Below are positions 1 through 19,260 of a DNA stretch of 20,984 nucleotides, in pieces. The stretch comes from a virus: positions 1 through 20,984 of IMG/VR virus record IMGVR_UViG_3300021141_000069. One strand, written 5' to 3'. Every line of letters starts with the position of its first letter. The first letter of the stretch is position 1. The notes below the pieces were generated by a model, which saw only the letters and a list, made by a program, of their open reading frames with translations, searched no databases and was not told the DNA's origin. A program made the translations under genes and the position numbers.

Positions 1-212
1 ATGATAAAATAACAGGCAGCAATGGTAAATTTGAAATAATGGCAACTATATTTGAAGAATTTGAATATTTAGGATGGTTTTCTGATAAATTTACAGATGA
101 TTATAATTTTATAGAAGGTTCAAATAAATTAAATATAAGAAAACAATTTTGGTCGCACGGTGGGTTAAGTAAAAATATTGAAAGCGAAATTTATGATATG
201 CTAAAAAAATAA
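1..212 (+). CDS. C-terminal part of an unknown protein (5' end outside window)
   Basis: An open frame enters from the left edge (first full codon at base 3) and ends at TAA 210-212, giving the last 69 residues of a protein. The visible part is rich in Phe, Asn, Lys and Ile, contains the stretch GWFSDKFTDDYNFIEGSNK, and ends in DMLKK. I do not recognise a family. It ends one base before the methyltransferase start and shares that gene's very A+T-rich composition, so the two probably form one transcription unit and may have arrived together. A role in glycan synthesis or modification is only a guess from the neighbour. Confidence 0.7.
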   Translation, partial: DKITGSNGKFEIMATIFEEFEYLGWFSDKFTDDYNFIEGSNKLNIRKQFWSHGGLSKNIESEIYDMLKK

Positions 213-213
213 T

Positions 214-930
214 ATGAAATCAATTCATGATAACAATTTTATTTTACAGTTAGAACATGAAATAAAAGAAAAACTTTGCATCAGCGAAATTCAATCTAAC
301 TCTCAACTAAATCAAGATCTATTTGTATTGATTTTAAAAAATTTTAAAACAAATGGTATTTTTGTAGAATTTGGAGTGTGTGATGGAATATTTTTAAGTA
401 ATAGTTTTATTTTAGAAAAAAAATATAATTGGAGTGGAGTTGTATGTGAACCATTAAAAAGTTTTCAAACAAAGCTATCGCAAAATAGAAACTGCTCTAT
501 AGATCATAGAGCAGTATATTCATCTAGTAATTTAACGGTTGAATTTAGAGAAATATCTGGAAATGAAGAACTTTCTGGAATATGTTCTTCTTTTTTAGAG
601 GATAATCTTGAAATTATCAGAAATGAAAACTATATATCATATCAAGTTGAAACTATAAGCTTAACAGATCTTTTAGACGATTATAATATTCCTGTTTCAA
701 TTGATTTTATTTCTATTGACACAGAAGGTTCAGAATTTGATATTCTATCGAATTTTAATTTTGATAAATATGACGTTGATATTTTTACAGTAGAACATAA
801 TTATATTCATAGCAAACGGGAAGAAATTAAAAATTTAATGGAAAAGAACCATTACACTCGAATTCTTACAGATATATCTCAGTGGGACGACTGGTATGTT
901 TCCAATAAATTTTTAAATACGAGAAATTAA
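214..930 (+). CDS. FkbM family SAM-dependent methyltransferase
   Basis: 238 residues. The SAM-binding motif I is visible as VEFGVCDG (about residues 51-58), followed by an acidic residue in VVCEPL (about 76-81), and the characteristic FkbM-type segment DFISIDTEGSEFDIL lies near residues 164-178. FkbM-type enzymes usually O-methylate sugars or small molecules, and in phages and bacteria they often sit in surface glycan clusters. The start ATG lies one base after the upstream stop, with no clear Shine-Dalgarno sequence. The gene is strikingly A+T-rich (for example 13 G/C in bases 361-420, against 33 in 1561-1620 of the UV endonuclease gene), which suggests a separate origin from the downstream genes. 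The substrate cannot be read from the sequence. Confidence 0.85.
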   Translation: MKSIHDNNFILQLEHEIKEKLCISEIQSNSQLNQDLFVLILKNFKTNGIFVEFGVCDGIFLSNSFILEKKYNWSGVVCEPLKSFQTKLSQNRNCSIDHRAVYSSSNLTVEFREISGNEELSGICSSFLEDNLEIIRNENYISYQVETISLTDLLDDYNIPVSIDFISIDTEGSEFDILSNFNFDKYDVDIFTVEHNYIHSKREEIKNLMEKNHYTRILTDISQWDDWYVSNKFLNTRN

Positions 931-940
931 TAACTTAAAT

Positions 941-1267
941 GGGTGTGACATGGTTTCGACATGACTGTTGAAACAATATATGCAATGCACAGTCTGCACG
1001 ACTATAAGTGCGCAAGAAAAACGAAAAAGATACACTAGCTCTCGCGGCATAACCGCACCAACACATCGACTCCGATGCAGTGTGTTGGCACAGAGGAAGA
1101 TCGGATAGTTGTATATCGAAAATATAATAGACTCATCGATTCGAATATTGATGCGGGATTGCTCGACAACAATCTAGGTTGTGATTGTCCTAACATCAAT
1201 CAATAAATTGTAGAAGTATATTGTCGAGAAGTCATGGACTGGAGTTCGATCCTCCACACATCCACCA
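941..1267 (+). ncRNA. ssrA: tmRNA (ssrA), complete, with encoded CCA
   Basis: The 5' end GGGTGTGACATGGTTTCGAC matches the conserved tmRNA start, and the 3' end carries a T arm (GGAG-TTCGATC-CTCC) followed by ACACATCC and ACCA. The acceptor stem pairs bases 941-947 with the strand before ACCA and has a G3-U pair, the alanine identity element recognised by AlaRS. Helix H2 is supported by ATGACT (961-966) pairing with AGTCAT (1230-1235). A pseudoknot-type stem follows the tag: CCAACACA (1058-1065) with TGTGTTGG (1081-1088). The tag frame ends at TAA 1050-1052 and reads RKKNEKDTLALAA if it resumes at CGC 1011. tmRNA with SmpB rescues stalled ribosomes and tags their products for proteolysis. No smpB gene is seen in the window, so host SmpB would be needed. 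The promoter is unclear; it may be processed from a transcript reading through from the left. Confidence 0.95.
1011..1052 (+). other. tmRNA tag-peptide reading frame
   Basis: The frame ending at TAA 1050-1052 encodes NEKDTLALAA preceded by RKK. The LALAA end matches the usual hydrophobic, protease-recognised end of bacterial tags (E. coli ends in YALAA). Aligning the upstream TATAAGTG with E. coli TATAGTC places the resume codon at CGC (Arg) 1011-1013. The GCA at 1012-1014 would instead read ARKTKKIH and stop at TAG, losing the normal tag end. The exact resume codon is therefore inferred. Confidence 0.75.
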
Positions 1268-1274
1268 TTTTCTT

Positions 1275-1304
1275 GTTTACATATGAGCGCTCTTAGGGTA
1301 TAAT
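1275..1304 (+). promoter_or_regulatory. Early-type promoter of the UV endonuclease gene
   Basis: GTTTAC (1275-1280), 18 bases, TATAAT (1299-1304). GTTTAC is the T4 early promoter -35 sequence. The same N18 spacing occurs in all other full promoters of this window. The -10 box ends only 5 bases before the ATG, so the transcript would be leaderless or nearly so. It begins just after the tmRNA CCA end. Confidence 0.8.
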
Positions 1305-1309
1305 GCATC

Positions 1310-2227
1310 ATGACACCACGACTGGGACTAGTTTGTATAAGCGAAAGACTGACACACCAAAAGATCTCAGCGAAGACGATGACTCGCAAACAGTTTGTAA
1401 CTCTTGGTCGAGAGCGTGGGTTGCAAGTACTATCCGAGCGTATACTTCATAATTCACAGCACATCTTGCGTACTCTCCAGGCATGCATCGACTCAGGTGC
1501 TCGACACTATCGTGTGTCGAGTTCAATTTTTCCGTTGCTTACTGATCATACGCTCGAGTTGCGCTACGACGACCTGCATGGGTTTAATGATATCGCAAGC
1601 AACCTCGCGAAGGCTGGTGAATTTGCTCGGCGGCATGACATCACATGCAGTTCACATCCCGATCAGTTTAATGTCCTATCAAGTTATAACCCTGATGTTG
1701 TAGACAAGACTATTCGCGAACTTGACCATCAGTCATATGTACTTGATATGATGGGATGTAAAGCAAACTATAGTTCTCCAATGTGTCTGCATCTCAACAA
1801 GAGCCCTGACTTTAAGCGTGAAAAGATTGGCGAGTATGTGTCTCGCTTTTGTGCAAATCTCGCACGTTGCAGTCGTGGCGTTCGTCATCGACTTGTGTTA
1901 GAAAACGAAGACAAAGCATACTGGAATTGCGAGAATCTCTACACACATTTTGCCGGTCATCTTCCACTTGTCTATGACAATCTTCATGACACGTGCAACC
2001 CGTCATGTGACTCGTCTCAAAGCATCTCTCGATTTCGTCAAAGTTGGGGAAAGTACACACCAGTGTTTCATTGGAGCGAAGGCATTGGCAGCACTCGTAG
2101 TCATACTGACTATGCGACTCATCTTCCCCATGTAGTCTCTGCAAATCGTGATGTCACATGGGAAGTCGAGCTCAAGGCAAAAGACAACGCGATCGCTCAT
2201 ATTCTGAGCACCTTTTTTGCCTCCTAA
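1310..2227 (+). CDS. uvsE: UV damage endonuclease (UvsE/UVDE family)
   Basis: 305 residues, a full-length UVDE TIM-barrel protein. It starts with the typical RLGLVCIS strand. Metal-ligand motifs are present in order: SSHPDQFNVLSS (H116), CLHLN (H161), LVLENED (E198), YDNLHD (D223, H226), FHWSEG (H254) and an acidic C-terminal strand WEVELKAKD. These enzymes nick DNA 5' of UV photoproducts using bound metal ions and start alternative excision repair. The ATG lies 5 bases after a perfect TATAAT and there is no Shine-Dalgarno sequence; an in-frame upstream start would fall inside the promoter. A terminator begins right after the stop codon, so the gene is a single-gene unit. In a phage it would protect the genome from sunlight damage. 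Confidence 0.95.
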   Translation: MTPRLGLVCISERLTHQKISAKTMTRKQFVTLGRERGLQVLSERILHNSQHILRTLQACIDSGARHYRVSSSIFPLLTDHTLELRYDDLHGFNDIASNLAKAGEFARRHDITCSSHPDQFNVLSSYNPDVVDKTIRELDHQSYVLDMMGCKANYSSPMCLHLNKSPDFKREKIGEYVSRFCANLARCSRGVRHRLVLENEDKAYWNCENLYTHFAGHLPLVYDNLHDTCNPSCDSSQSISRFRQSWGKYTPVFHWSEGIGSTRSHTDYATHLPHVVSANRDVTWEVELKAKDNAIAHILSTFFAS

Positions 2228-5576: not shown

Positions 5577-5843
5577 ATGCCAAAATACAGAATCGTAAAG
5601 GACTATCGCAACAGAAACACAAAACTGTCACACGAAAAATACTATATTCAACGCAAGTGGTTATGGATGTGGAATGACATCGATCCATTTGACGTTGACT
5701 CGAGTTTCTACAGAAGCGGTAAAAGTTGGGACACCTTTGAAGAGGCACTCGATGTATACACAAAGATCGAAGAGATTGAAGCTCTCAAGTGCCGTGGATT
5801 AGAGGTCGTGTGGCCAAAACCACGTCCGGAATGGCCTTGCTGA
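5577..5843 (+). CDS. Small protein of the YRIV/KxLWxW paralog family, copy 1
   Basis: 88 residues. It shares with the genes at 17363 and 17672 the pattern YRIV or YRII near the start, then YY.I or YYIQ, then K-(F/W/V)-L-W/C-x-W/F, then an acidic helix with EEA or AED. This copy reads KYRIVKDYRN, KYYIQRKWLWMW and DTFEEALDVY, and has a longer C-terminal end (EVVWPKPRPEWPC). It ends the early operon; the terminator begins at its stop codon. Aromatic-rich compact fold; function unknown. Confidence 0.7.
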   Translation: MPKYRIVKDYRNRNTKLSHEKYYIQRKWLWMWNDIDPFDVDSSFYRSGKSWDTFEEALDVYTKIEEIEALKCRGLEVVWPKPRPEWPC

Positions 5844-5884
5844 GGTCATTTTTCTAAGCCCGGGCTACGTCCGGGACCTTTTTT
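5843..5884 (+). terminator. Rho-independent terminator, end of first early operon
   Basis: Outer stem AGGTC (5843-5847) with GACCT (5875-5879). The inner hairpin CCCGGGC-TAC-GTCCGGG (5859-5875, one G-U) is an alternative or added stem. T run 5879-5884. Same design as the terminators at 2228 and 14067. Confidence 0.85.
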
Positions 5885-5903
5885 CACTTTTATGAAAAAA
5901 GTT

Positions 5904-5950
5904 GTGTACTTTTGCCGCGGTTTATGCTATAATAACCATGTAAGCAACAA
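5904..5950 (+). promoter_or_regulatory. Early-type promoter plus GTAAGCAACAA leader, copy 2
   Basis: GTGTAC (5904-5909), N18, TGC-TATAAT (5928-5933). The predicted start falls on the G of GTAAGCAACAA (5940-5950). Upstream palindrome CTTTTTTCA/TGAAAAAAG as in copy 1. From the palindrome to the leader it is nearly identical in sequence to copy 1. Confidence 0.85.
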
Positions 5951-5961
5951 ACCACAACCAA

Positions 5962-11498: not shown

Positions 11499-11630
11499 GA
11501 CAAGCATAAATAAGGACCTATCCAAACTATGCCCGAAGGTTCCGGAACGGATAAATAGTGTTGAGTTAATGCCAGATTAGACATTTTTCTTATTTTGTCG
11601 AGAATTTTATGCACTTTTGTGAAAAAGGTT
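11499..11630 (+). other. Non-coding stretch with two late-like octamers
   Basis: No gene is seen. It holds CATAAATA (11505-11512) and GATAAATA (11550-11557), each one base from the T4 late octamer, and the palindrome GTTCCGGAAC (11539-11548). It bridges the long inverted repeat and promoter copy 3. I see no tRNA here. Confidence 0.5.
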
Positions 11631-11677
11631 GTGTACAAATCGTGAGTTTTGTGGTATAATAGTCATGTAAGCAACAA
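11631..11677 (+). promoter_or_regulatory. Early-type promoter plus GTAAGCAACAA leader, copy 3
   Basis: GTGTAC (11631-11636), N18, TGG-TATAAT (11655-11660). The predicted start is the G of GTAAGCAACAA (11667-11677). The spacer differs from the other copies while both boxes, the spacing and the leader are kept, which shows what is under selection. The leader is followed by T and the ATG at 11679. Confidence 0.85.
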
Positions 11678-11678
11678 T

Positions 11679-11888
11679 ATGACACACCTCGAAACACTAA
11701 AGACTGACCTTGAGCTTCACCTCAAAAGTCGTGAAGCCCTGGTAGACGGTTCTGGCGGGTTTTTTATCAAACGAGCCGGTTATAATGTCGGTGCCGTTAT
11801 TCATAGCTATGATGGCATCATACGCTCCTTGGAGGAAGAGATTGCCAGCATTGAGGCTAAAAAACGTAATAAGAAAACACCTGCATGA
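11679..11888 (+). CDS. Hypothetical protein, first gene after promoter copy 3
   Basis: 69 residues: MTHLETLKTDLELHLKSREA, a Gly/Phe-rich turn (VDGSGGFFIKRAGYNVGAVI) and a helix SYDGIIRSLEEEIASIEAKK. Two helices around a beta hairpin, with a basic end. The start is fixed by the leader motif, one base before the ATG. A longer frame from 11649 would begin inside the promoter. Coupled by ATGA to the next gene. Not recognised. Confidence 0.75.
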   Translation: MTHLETLKTDLELHLKSREALVDGSGGFFIKRAGYNVGAVIHSYDGIIRSLEEEIASIEAKKRNKKTPA

Positions 11889-14066: not shown

Positions 14067-14109
14067 AGGTCATTTTCTCTATACGGGGACACCGTCCGGG
14101 ACCTTTTTT
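14067..14109 (+). terminator. Rho-independent terminator after the exonuclease gene
   Basis: Outer stem AGGTC (14067-14071) with GACCT (14100-14104), inner GGAC-ACC-GTCC, then six T (14104-14109). A second small hairpin GGCCTC-CAG-GAGGTC (14057-14071) precedes and competes with it. Confidence 0.8.
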
Positions 14110-14128
14110 CACTTTTATGAAAAAAGTT

Positions 14129-14175
14129 GTGTACTTTTGTCGCGGTTTATGCTATAATGACCATGTAAGCAACAA
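14129..14175 (+). promoter_or_regulatory. Early-type promoter plus GTAAGCAACAA leader, copy 4
   Basis: GTGTAC (14129-14134), N18, TGC-TATAAT (14153-14158). The leader GTAAGCAACAA (14165-14175) begins at the predicted start site. The upstream palindrome CTTTTTTCA/TGAAAAAAG is present. The ATG at 14177 follows after one base, as in copies 3 and 5. Confidence 0.85.
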
Positions 14176-14176
14176 T

Positions 14177-14668
14177 ATGACCACCACCTACTACGCCTCA
14201 GAAGTCAGTTCCGAAGAATACTCCGCCACATTAGCAGAGGCTGCAGAACTTGCCCTCGCTGATTATGAAGCTCATATCTCTGAGCAAGACGTTCGCATTG
14301 GAGACATCATCAAAGACAGCAACGTTGCAGATGACATCACACTCTATCGTGTCACTGATATAATTCAAGAGCAATGGTACGAACCACTCATTGTGCTTGA
14401 AGTTCTCAAACATTCTGGCTGGTCCCCCACTTCGGTTCGCTTTCATCACCTCTTCAAACCAACCAAGGCGACGCCACGAAAGCTACGGTGGTTTTTGAGC
14501 GCGATTCCAGTTGGTGGACTATTCAAAAGTTCTAACTATGAAGGCGCTCTACTTATGCAGCGAGTCGAAGACACCGATGCTGGCACACTACGAGCCCGTT
14601 ATCTAGAAGGTCAATTTACAGGCGAGGTCATTTGTAAAAGCAAACACAGCCGAGTCTATGCTCTCTAA
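14177..14668 (+). CDS. Hypothetical protein, first gene after promoter copy 4
   Basis: 163 residues, not recognised. N-terminal acidic helix (SSEEYSATLAEAAELALADY), then a beta-rich middle with the turn VRIGDIIKDSNVADDITLYR, VTDIIQEQWYEPLIVLEVL, and a basic C-terminal part (KPTKATPRKLRWFLSAIPVG). The GD-turn barrel resembles those of the 5962 and 6249 proteins. The MTTT start (ATGACCACCAC) is shared with the gene at 16161, so sequence conservation runs from the leader into the first codons. A frame through the promoter from 14117 is rejected. Confidence 0.8.
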   Translation: MTTTYYASEVSSEEYSATLAEAAELALADYEAHISEQDVRIGDIIKDSNVADDITLYRVTDIIQEQWYEPLIVLEVLKHSGWSPTSVRFHHLFKPTKATPRKLRWFLSAIPVGGLFKSSNYEGALLMQRVEDTDAGTLRARYLEGQFTGEVICKSKHSRVYAL

Positions 14669-14942: not shown

Positions 14943-16055
14943 ATGAAATTACCTACACTATACAGTCGTACATCGACTGGGAGCATTCAAGAATGGACGA
15001 TTGAAATCGAAGATGGACGGTGTCGTACCCATCATGGCAAGGTCGGAGGCAAGATTGTGACCACACTGTGGACCACATGTGAAGCCACTAATGTCGGCCG
15101 AGCAAATGAGCGCGACATTTCAGCTCAAGCACTTTTCGAGGCACAAGCACTCTGGAAAAAGAAAAAGGAAAGTGGTTGTTTTGAGTCAATTGCTGACATT
15201 GATCGCAGTCTTTATATTGAGCCAATGCTTGCTAAAAAATGGGAAGATCGCAAAAGTCGTGTCGTCTATCCAGTCTATAGTCAACCAAAGCTTGATGGTT
15301 TACGAGCAGTCATCACAGCAAAGGGGGCAACTACACGAAATGGCAAGCCTTGGGTTACGATTCCCCATATCTTGCAGGAGTTGGCTCCTCTTTTTAAGGC
15401 ACATCCAGATCTTGTGCTTGATGGCGAGCTTTATACTCACAAATATAAGGATGACTTTAATAGTATTTGTAGTCTTGTGAAAAAAACCAAACCATCCGCT
15501 GCAGACCTACAGGAGTGTGCCAATAAGATCCAATTTTGGTGGTATGATACGGTTGACCCAAGTAAAAAGTTTTCGGCACGTTCCTCTCAGGCTGCTTACT
15601 ATGCAAACACATTCAAGTTAAATCCAAACATTATTGTGGATGTACCTACCACTATGGTATGTGACGAGATTTCCCTTGATGCGACATATGAAAATTATTT
15701 GCAAGATGGCTATGAAGGTCAGATGGTACGAGTTGACGCGCCATACGAGTGTAAGCGTAGTGACTCGCTGCTCAAGCGCAAAGAGTTTCAGGATGGCGAA
15801 TATCTCATTGTTGAAATTTGCGAAGGCAATGGCAACAAGAGCGGCATGGCTGGTTATGCGGTCTTGCAAAGACCAGATGGAAAAACCTTTCGAAGCAACA
15901 TTAAAGGCACACACTCATTTTTGAAAGAGCTCTTAAAGGATGCTGAGTCTCTTCGTGGAACATATGCTACATGCACCTATTTCAATCTTACCCCAGATGG
16001 CATTCCACGCTTTCCATACGTCACCAGACTGAGACCGGGGCCTGGAATTGACTGA
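14943..16055 (+). CDS. ATP-dependent DNA ligase with WGR-like N-terminal domain
   Basis: 370 residues. The N-terminal 75 residues (YSRTSTGSIQEWTIEIEDGR ... HHGKVGGKIVT) look like a WGR-type domain. Nucleotidyltransferase motifs: I PKLDGLR with K116 as the adenylated Lys, III VLDGELY (E162), IV DGYEGQMVR (E258), V LLKRKEF (K278/K280). The C-terminal part (FRSNIKGTHSFLKELLKDAE) belongs to the OB-fold. It seals nicks with 3'-OH and 5'-phosphate ends using ATP, as needed for lagging strands and repair after UvsE. The length fits compact phage and virus ligases. Last gene of the copy 4 operon; the stop is followed by a hairpin and promoter copy 5. Confidence 0.93.
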   Translation: MKLPTLYSRTSTGSIQEWTIEIEDGRCRTHHGKVGGKIVTTLWTTCEATNVGRANERDISAQALFEAQALWKKKKESGCFESIADIDRSLYIEPMLAKKWEDRKSRVVYPVYSQPKLDGLRAVITAKGATTRNGKPWVTIPHILQELAPLFKAHPDLVLDGELYTHKYKDDFNSICSLVKKTKPSAADLQECANKIQFWWYDTVDPSKKFSARSSQAAYYANTFKLNPNIIVDVPTTMVCDEISLDATYENYLQDGYEGQMVRVDAPYECKRSDSLLKRKEFQDGEYLIVEICEGNGNKSGMAGYAVLQRPDGKTFRSNIKGTHSFLKELLKDAESLRGTYATCTYFNLTPDGIPRFPYVTRLRPGPGID

Positions 16056-16077
16056 AATTTGACCCTGGAGGTTGAAA

Positions 16078-16100
16078 AAAAGTGAAGTTTTTTCACTTTT
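16078..16100 (+). terminator. A/T-rich hairpin after the ligase gene
   Basis: Perfect 9-bp stem AAAAGTGAA (16078-16086) / TTCACTTTT (16092-16100) with a five-base loop, in place of the GC-rich terminators found before the other promoters. Its right arm overlaps the conserved promoter-proximal palindrome, so the two structures exclude each other. Terminator function is uncertain. Confidence 0.5.
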
Positions 16101-16112
16101 ATGAAAAAAGTT

Positions 16113-16159
16113 GTGTACTTTTTGCGGGTTTTAGTGTATAATAATCCTGTAAGCAACAA
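16113..16159 (+). promoter_or_regulatory. Early-type promoter plus GTAAGCAACAA leader, copy 5
   Basis: GTGTAC (16113-16118), N18, TATAAT (16137-16142), leader GTAAGCAACAA (16149-16159), T, then the ATG at 16161. Here the bases before the leader are CCT rather than CAT, so an ATGTAA start-stop seen in other copies is absent. Confidence 0.85.
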
Positions 16160-16160
16160 T

Positions 16161-16502
16161 ATGACCACCACTGATATTACCTCTGCCGTAGCCACAGTTT
16201 CACTCTATCGTAGCCTCAATAACCGATTTGTCGATGACGCTGACGATCGCCAACGACACATCACATTTCGCTGCATGACTGAGTATAGTCAAGACAATAC
16301 TCCTGAATGGCTGTTCGAAGCGACCAATGCCCCAGAAAGTTTTCTTGACGCTGAGCAGATGTTTGTGCGTCAGACATTCGCTGATGCGAAGCTCCACTCA
16401 CTTTCTCGTGGAGACGTAATTGGCATCAACGGCACATTCTATAAATGCAAGATGGTTGGATGGGAAAAGGTCCCACACTTTAACGACACAATTGAACACT
16501 GA
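16161..16502 (+). CDS. Hypothetical protein, first gene after promoter copy 5
   Basis: 113 residues: MTTTDITSAVATVSLYRSLN, a charged DDADDRQRHITFRCMTEYSQ, and a C-terminal barrel-like LSRGDVIGINGTFYKCKMVG. The gene start shares MTTT codons with the 14177 gene, and both have the GD-turn pattern, so they may be related regulatory or DNA-mimic-type early proteins. The start is set by the leader. The stop overlaps the next start (TGATG). Confidence 0.75.
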   Translation: MTTTDITSAVATVSLYRSLNNRFVDDADDRQRHITFRCMTEYSQDNTPEWLFEATNAPESFLDAEQMFVRQTFADAKLHSLSRGDVIGINGTFYKCKMVGWEKVPHFNDTIEH

Positions 16503-19230: not shown

Positions 19231-19260
19231 ATTTACTTTTAATCTAAAATGGTGTATAAT
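19231..19260 (+). promoter_or_regulatory. Early-type promoter of the DUF2693-like gene
   Basis: ATTTAC (19231-19236), N18, TATAAT (19255-19260), the same spacing as the GTGTAC promoters but without the leader motif. The -10 box ends 6 bases before the ATG at 19267, so the transcript is predicted to be leaderless, as for uvsE. Confidence 0.7.

Follow-up and report, generated by a model that had tools for sequence, protein, structure and literature searches.

A complete one-piece tmRNA gene next to uvsE in an uncultured phage group with T4-type members

The stretch of DNA analysed here (the window) is the viral IMG/VR record IMGVR_UViG_3300021141_000069, 20,984 nt long, and positions 941-1267 of its plus strand hold a complete one-piece tmRNA (ssrA) gene, set between an FkbM-type methyltransferase gene and uvsE (Table 1). 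In bacteria, tmRNA releases ribosomes that are stuck and adds a mark to the protein left unfinished. ARAGORN and the Rfam model RF00023 called identical ends, and the RF00023 match was full length (model positions 1-374), with 87.6 bits and an E value of 4.2e-33 against a curated cut-off of 47 bits. The first-pass annotation had proposed, pending the Rfam covariance model, a complete tmRNA gene carried by a phage, and this is confirmed: the record is viral and phage-type genes surround the locus, with phage-family matches in the window for UvsE, PhoH, DNA ligase, the thymidylate synthase family, an exonuclease and an endolysin or amidase. A blastn search with the window tmRNA against isolate phages gave no match.

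Table 1 Features in and around the tmRNA gene, in window coordinates
Feature	Position	Strand	Basis and remarks
FkbM-type methyltransferase	214-930	+	Pfam PF05050, E 6.7e-16; last gene of the A+T-rich cassette (about 24-28% GC); stops 10 nt short of the tmRNA
Acceptor stem, 5' strand GGGTGTG	941-947	+	Pairs with 1257-1263 (CACATCC); G3-U70; sequence and pair counts
H2 helices, 5' strands	960-966, 973-980, 981-986 (within 960-986)	+	Partners 1230-1236, 1217-1224 and 1207-1212, respectively
Pseudoknot 1 (PK1)	991-1011	+	S1 991-994/1000-1003, AGUC/GACU; S2 996-999/1008-1011, GCAC/GUGC
Spacer GCAAGAAAAAC, 11 nt, from PK1 to the putative resume codon, A at -4	1012-1022	+	Comparison with L015, L019 and E. 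coli (PMC2481249)
Putative tag frame GAA AAA GAT ACA CTA GCT CTC GCG GCA TAA (EKDTLALAA*)	1023-1052	+	Comparative inference
Post-tag pseudoknot (PK2)	1058-1104	+	S1 1058-1065/1081-1088; S2 1072-1076/1100-1104
Two more stems	1134-1182	+	1134-1140/1147-1153; 1166-1170/1178-1182
T arm (1240-1256), acceptor 3' strand (1257-1263), encoded ACCA (1264-1267)	1240-1267	+	
Sigma-70-like promoter TTTACA-17-TATAAT	1276-1304	+	Consensus match only
UV damage endonuclease UvsE/UvdE	1310-2227	+	Pfam PF03851, E 1.8e-38; phrog_8420

Read base by base, the sequence contains the acceptor stem, T arm, ACCA, H2, PK1, post-tag pseudoknot and EKDTLALAA* frame, so that the alanine-type acceptor with G3-U, T arm, H2, post-tag pseudoknot and encoded CCA noted at first reading are all present. 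The assignment to RF00023 rests on the full-length match above the cut-off, on the alanine-type G3-U70 acceptor with T arm and CCA end, on PK1 and further pseudoknots backed by compensatory change and, by comparison with relatives, on a frame about 11 nt past PK1 with A at -4, a hydrophobic -AA tail and a stop, a frame on which ARAGORN disagrees. A two-piece (permuted) tmRNA was considered and rejected, the order of parts being standard and the model matched in one piece.

Conservation of the fold was assessed in an alignment of 14 rows, which are the window's clade in a tree of 167 tmRNAs. The predicted folding energy of the window tmRNA lay below that of 100 of 100 shuffles (z -2.73). With the structure drawn on the window itself and 6 of the 14 rows near-copies, both of which flatter the pair counts, standard pairs occupied 85.6% of 911 cells (shuffled mean 70.8%; slid versions 29.3-43.4%) and both sides had changed at 42 of 66 pairs (shuffled mean 28.1); neither value was reached by any of 500 shuffles. 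The count of further pair types, one of five measures, was not distinctive (48 of 500 shuffles), and the stem at 1166-1170/1178-1182 was poorly preserved beyond the close relatives (59% of cells). The alignment is out of register by one base at the acceptor of L060, at the CCA end of L020 and at the T arm of L054, and L020 and L054 count against the fold. PK1 of L015, L054 and L222 has a different geometry, judged by eye only, and PK1 S2 shows compensated pairs (window GCAC/GUGC, L019 GCUU/AAGC, L020 GCUC/GAGC). The third acceptor pair is G-U in 13 of the 14 rows, with L060 shifted by one base and L020 the exception; both keep G3-U70 in register. These comparisons support a fold kept by compensatory changes across the 14 relatives, PK1 and the post-tag pseudoknot included. 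Separately, the tmRNA of L020 (8847-9170), read by hand, has an acceptor that starts GUG, not GGG, with G3-U70 still present.

We consider it likely that this gene encodes a functional phage tmRNA. The gap between cassette and tmRNA yielded no consensus promoter, and a promoter-like match lies within the cassette at 716-744; the RNA would be transcribed either with the cassette or from that match, and then trimmed at both ends. It would be charged with alanine by the host alanyl-tRNA synthetase through G3-U70, be bound by host SmpB and EF-Tu, and enter those host ribosomes that have stalled on mRNAs which were cut or are unfinished. Translation would then switch to the GAA at 1023, add A+EKDTLALAA and stop at the UAA at 1050-1052, and the tagged product would be degraded by a ClpXP-type protease reading -LAA. 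The phage could gain in that, during takeover of the cell, ribosomes leave cut host mRNA sooner and fragments are cleared. SmpB (PF01668) was found in none of 16 related records, which may be fragments and do not include the window's own record, with controls positive in 10 of 14; the host may therefore have to supply SmpB.

The lack of a phage SmpB in those 16 records would also suit a decoy, an RNA that is charged or binds SmpB and mainly ties up SmpB, dampening host trans-translation. Such a role has been proposed for the tRNA-like-only RNA of mycobacteriophage DS6A, and PMC4131195 and PMC11915505 describe a tRNA-like-only molecule that inhibits tmRNA. A decoy, however, would need none of the mRNA-like part, PK1 and the tag, and all three are kept; because this half of the molecule is retained, we regard the decoy role as improbable and favour the working tmRNA.

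The frame in which this tmRNA would be read is the point on which ARAGORN and the comparative evidence part. ARAGORN starts the tag at a GCG at 1010 and reads 32 codons, AQEKRKRYTSS..., without the LALAA end; it calls similar tags in the close relatives L002, L003, L005 and L013. Were the tag read in this frame, the product would be AQEKRKRYTSSRGITAP... (32 aa), which we judge very unlikely: the start lies partly within PK1 stem 2 (1008-1011), and the called length varies between 32 and 27 codons among the five sequences, whereas EKDTLALAA is identical in all five. Relatives, moreover, retain LALAA in 9-codon tags of like type (GENNLALAA, GKNTLALAA and GINNLALAA), in a frame beginning 11 nt past PK1 in L019 and L015 and 12 nt past it in L203, L178, L060, L222 and L020, as counted by eye. 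According to PMC2481249, this spacing is 11 nt in E. coli tmRNA, the base at -4 (A86) is the main frame determinant, and a U85A change raises reading in the -1 frame. Among the 14 rows, the window type alone has A at -5 (by eye), which resembles E. coli U85A, and the -1 frame here is the one chosen by ARAGORN. Comparison with the relatives places the frame at GAA 1023 and gives a tag as long as theirs, with A at -4 and 11 nt past PK1, and therefore a resume codon at GAA 1023 and the tag EKDTLALAA are supported; the tag ending in LALAA proposed at first reading holds up. The window's resume codon would be GAA, against GGC in relatives. The ARAGORN tag looks like a mis-call, since its start falls inside PK1, and an automatic tag call on tmRNAs of this type would mislead annotation. 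A mis-call of the same kind was seen in L060 (5311-5641), where ARAGORN gives AQQQKALIT and the comparative frame GINNLALAA.

To place the gene among its relatives, 42 UvsE-related records, all possibly fragments and many of them near-copies, were searched, and RF00023 exceeded its cut-off in 32 (21 of 23 in one set, or 22 of 24 with L060, which had entered that set via a pattern, and 11 of 19 otherwise). Three tmRNA types were distinguished by eye: A, the window's; B, in L011, L012 and L022-L029; and C, with a 33-residue tag. Explaining the types on the UvsE tree takes 4 changes for A and 3 each for B and C, counted against all other rows including those in which no tmRNA was found, and neither A nor B forms a single clade. 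The rows without a tmRNA are mostly fragments, and two of them have a UvsE identical to that of typed rows; L042, a partial protein, was left out. These counts fit phages having exchanged tmRNAs, or uvsE, with one another. The type B tmRNAs of L022-L029 (for example L022, 15410-15790) include long tags in L022 and L023, such as GNNIVNAVRSFVNRSFAPQGELALAA (26 codons), with the LALAA end kept.

In the tree of 167 tmRNAs, the window's clade comprised 14 viral rows and no bacterial row, with support of 0.99. The bacterial rows came from a pattern scan that sought one-piece tmRNAs whose 9-codon tag fits [LF]A[LF]AA (at least 117 stretches) and are a partial, pattern-biased set; since nine codons are built into that pattern, an E or D at the first position of bacterial tags does not show that such resume codons occur in bacteria. 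Records without a parsed 3' end, duplicates and L021, L236 and L241 were left out of the tree, the 5' end of L020 was shortened by one base, L054 was reduced to 322 nt, and the other phage tmRNAs of L011, L012, L022, L037 and L041 were added. Descent from one host lineage, for which a comparison with host ssrA genes had been suggested, could not be shown with this partial bacterial set.

The lack of one shared history between tmRNA types and UvsE, and the varying location of the gene among relatives, might mean that a bacterial ssrA was captured and now persists as a passenger or in decay, with no function for the phage. The compensatory evolution of the fold argues against this, as does the prevalence of tmRNA in the UvsE-related records; in addition, the window and the nine viral records closest to it in arrangement hold six distinct tmRNA sequences, whose columns are on average 97% identical, with an unbroken and unchanged tag region in 6 of 6. 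The passenger reading is disfavoured, and we give it very little weight. Given its presence in 32 of 42 records, tmRNA appears common in one uncultured phage group with T4-type members, and ribosome rescue looks like the phage's own equipment and not like an accident of capture.

An assembly chimera of bacterial and phage DNA, suggested by a GC step near position 940, can practically be dismissed, since the tmRNA lies directly before uvsE, with a 42-nt gap, in the window and nine other viral records among the 42 UvsE-related loci, and window positions 1-940 recur ungapped at 99.5% in L002 and 79% in L003, whose record names indicate two different metagenomes. A bacterial piece joined by error at 1-1270, which would have undone the first-pass reading, is thus refuted as far as assemblies can tell, the junction between the FkbM gene and the tmRNA being repeated in the separate record L002 over 940 nt. 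On gene content, the tmRNA is assigned to a group of uncultured phages, some of them T4-type. The tmRNA-uvsE locus also stands in three larger records (G001, G002 and G003) that encode a T4-type gp23, a protein found in 9 of 24 records searched overall. The gp23 of G002 is nearest to those of Pelagibacter phage HTVC008M, which NCBI places in Kyanoviridae, Pantevenvirales, and of the Melnitz methylophages (56.6-57.6% identity). The gp23 of G001 has 491 aa, against 438 in G002 and 435 in G003. G001 (the record of L004) and G007 (the record of L026) have gp23 of equal score and length, with a UvsE identity to the window of 99% for L004 and 56% for L026. Given this odd length and equal score, recombination between phages or a chimeric contig may account for G001 and G007, and some such records may be recombinant or chimeric.

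Phage tmRNAs are already in print, and the window tmRNA therefore joins a known class; the first-pass remark that tmRNAs are normally cellular does not stand as a claim of rarity. PMC9004378 gives tmRNA in 402 of 18,146 phage genomes, and PMC11915505 lists 79 phage sequences among 97,179, with 10 as the most frequent tag length. PMC4131195 names ssrA in mycobacteriophages Bxz1, Wildcat and others and in Bacillus phage G, and PMC7162821 reports tmRNA and SmpB in metagenomic huge phages. In the excerpt of PMC5587285, no tmRNA was found in phage pf16, and the excerpt of PMC3037559 mentions phage tmRNA only in a reference. The window copy resembles the bacterial one-piece tmRNA (RF00023) in matching the model over its full length, in G3-U70, T arm, PK1 and 11-nt spacer, and in the -LAA end of its tag, and differs in being carried by a phage, in its inferred GAA resume codon and in its supported clade without a bacterial row of the set. 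Methylophilales phage Melnitz (PMC9004378) likewise has a tmRNA in a T4-type phage, and its gp23 is among the nearest to that of the sister record G002, but its tmRNA is two-piece and described with a glutamine riboswitch, whereas the window's is one-piece and precedes uvsE. Bxz1, Wildcat and others and Bacillus phage G (PMC4131195) share an ssrA in a phage genome, but are named for mycobacteria and Bacillus and lie outside this group. The huge phages (PMC7162821) are likewise uncultured and carry tmRNA, but SmpB occurs in that genome set, against 0 of the 16 records here.

The type C tmRNAs of distant UvsE relatives (33-35% identity) are one-piece tmRNAs of about 400 nt, scoring 87-107 bits against RF00023 in the seven records tested, and one such record, G009, has a T4-type gp23 whose best isolate match, among the matches listed, is about 34%. 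Loci with a type C tmRNA are L272-L278, L280-L293, L295-L297, L037 and L041 (for example L041, 15333-15739). A scan for the tag start gave 22 stretches, 20 of tmRNA type, with 17 distinct tag frames; the other two, L279 and L294, were rejected as an ordinary gene. All 17 frames encode 33 residues ending in LELV or FELV, with the common form AEDNFDMAMSLEEADAIL..GFVD[AS]EA[ET]LELV and no -AA end. Over these frames the uncorrected pN/pS is 0.19, variable columns number 9, 5 and 18 at codon positions 1, 2 and 3 (p 0.016, relatedness ignored), and the other two frames contain stops in 17 of 17. Of the complete type C RNAs, 17 of 17 have G3-U70 and 0 of 17 an encoded CCA. Long tags exist in Mollicutes. 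Searches of Pfam, PHROGs, PDB and isolate phages, at the limits used, gave no match to the type C tag, which also had no second occurrence elsewhere in five of the records; its pattern did not occur in 398 genomes from one phylum or in 396 from a second, and the true hosts may lie elsewhere. SmpB was found in 0 of 13 type C records, two of them shared with the 16-record set, with positive controls.

A tag that lacks -AA, yet seems to be preserved by selection, suggests that tagged proteins go elsewhere than to ClpXP. We offer, as a tentative possibility, that tmRNA has become a tagging device of the T4-type phages' own, with a tag chosen by the phage as a signal and not inherited as a host degron: the window's lineage would have a host-like degron with a GAA resume codon, and the deep sister lineage a 33-residue peptide without -AA, selected at the protein level, by which rescued proteins might be stabilised, relocated or passed on to some factor, of phage or host, that is not ClpXP. 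Type C thus raises a testable question, namely what a phage gains from its own tag on unfinished proteins.

The flanks of the window tmRNA evolve differently. In L005/L013 and L004/L009 the upstream block differs, and similarity to the window sets in only within the 20 nt adjoining the tmRNA (16-17 of 20 identical, versus 2-8 of 20 further upstream). Since this block changes while tmRNA and uvsE stay, the A+T-rich block is read as a swappable cassette with its border within about 20 nt of the tmRNA, and tmRNA plus uvsE as the constant flank. The upstream genes have FkbM methyltransferase, DUF6492 and nucleotide-sugar transferase matches, the others of those scanned being without a Pfam match, and the cassette probably serves sugar modification in part. 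The first-pass idea that the tmRNA marks a past integration or exchange site survives only in the limited sense that the cassette has been swapped next to it between otherwise close phages; as an integration site it is unsupported, with no integrase among the ten window proteins scanned.

Downstream, the TATAAT of the uvsE promoter lies a few bases ahead of the ATG in the window and its relatives (1276-1312), so near that the uvsE mRNA may be leaderless. Elsewhere in the window, a repeat of about 118 nt occurs at 2228-2345, 5843-5960, 11570-11687, 14068-14185 and 16052-16169, with its core also at 19252; the copies have 60-84% identity to the first and a TATAAT-type promoter, with a string like ATGTAAGCAACAA in most, and the repeat is probably a repeated early promoter and leader. 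A second promoter-like repeat of about 39 nt, AAGGAACWCYRATATAAT..., has five copies (6823, 6979, 7132, 7342 and 17882), with an ATG near each 3' end.
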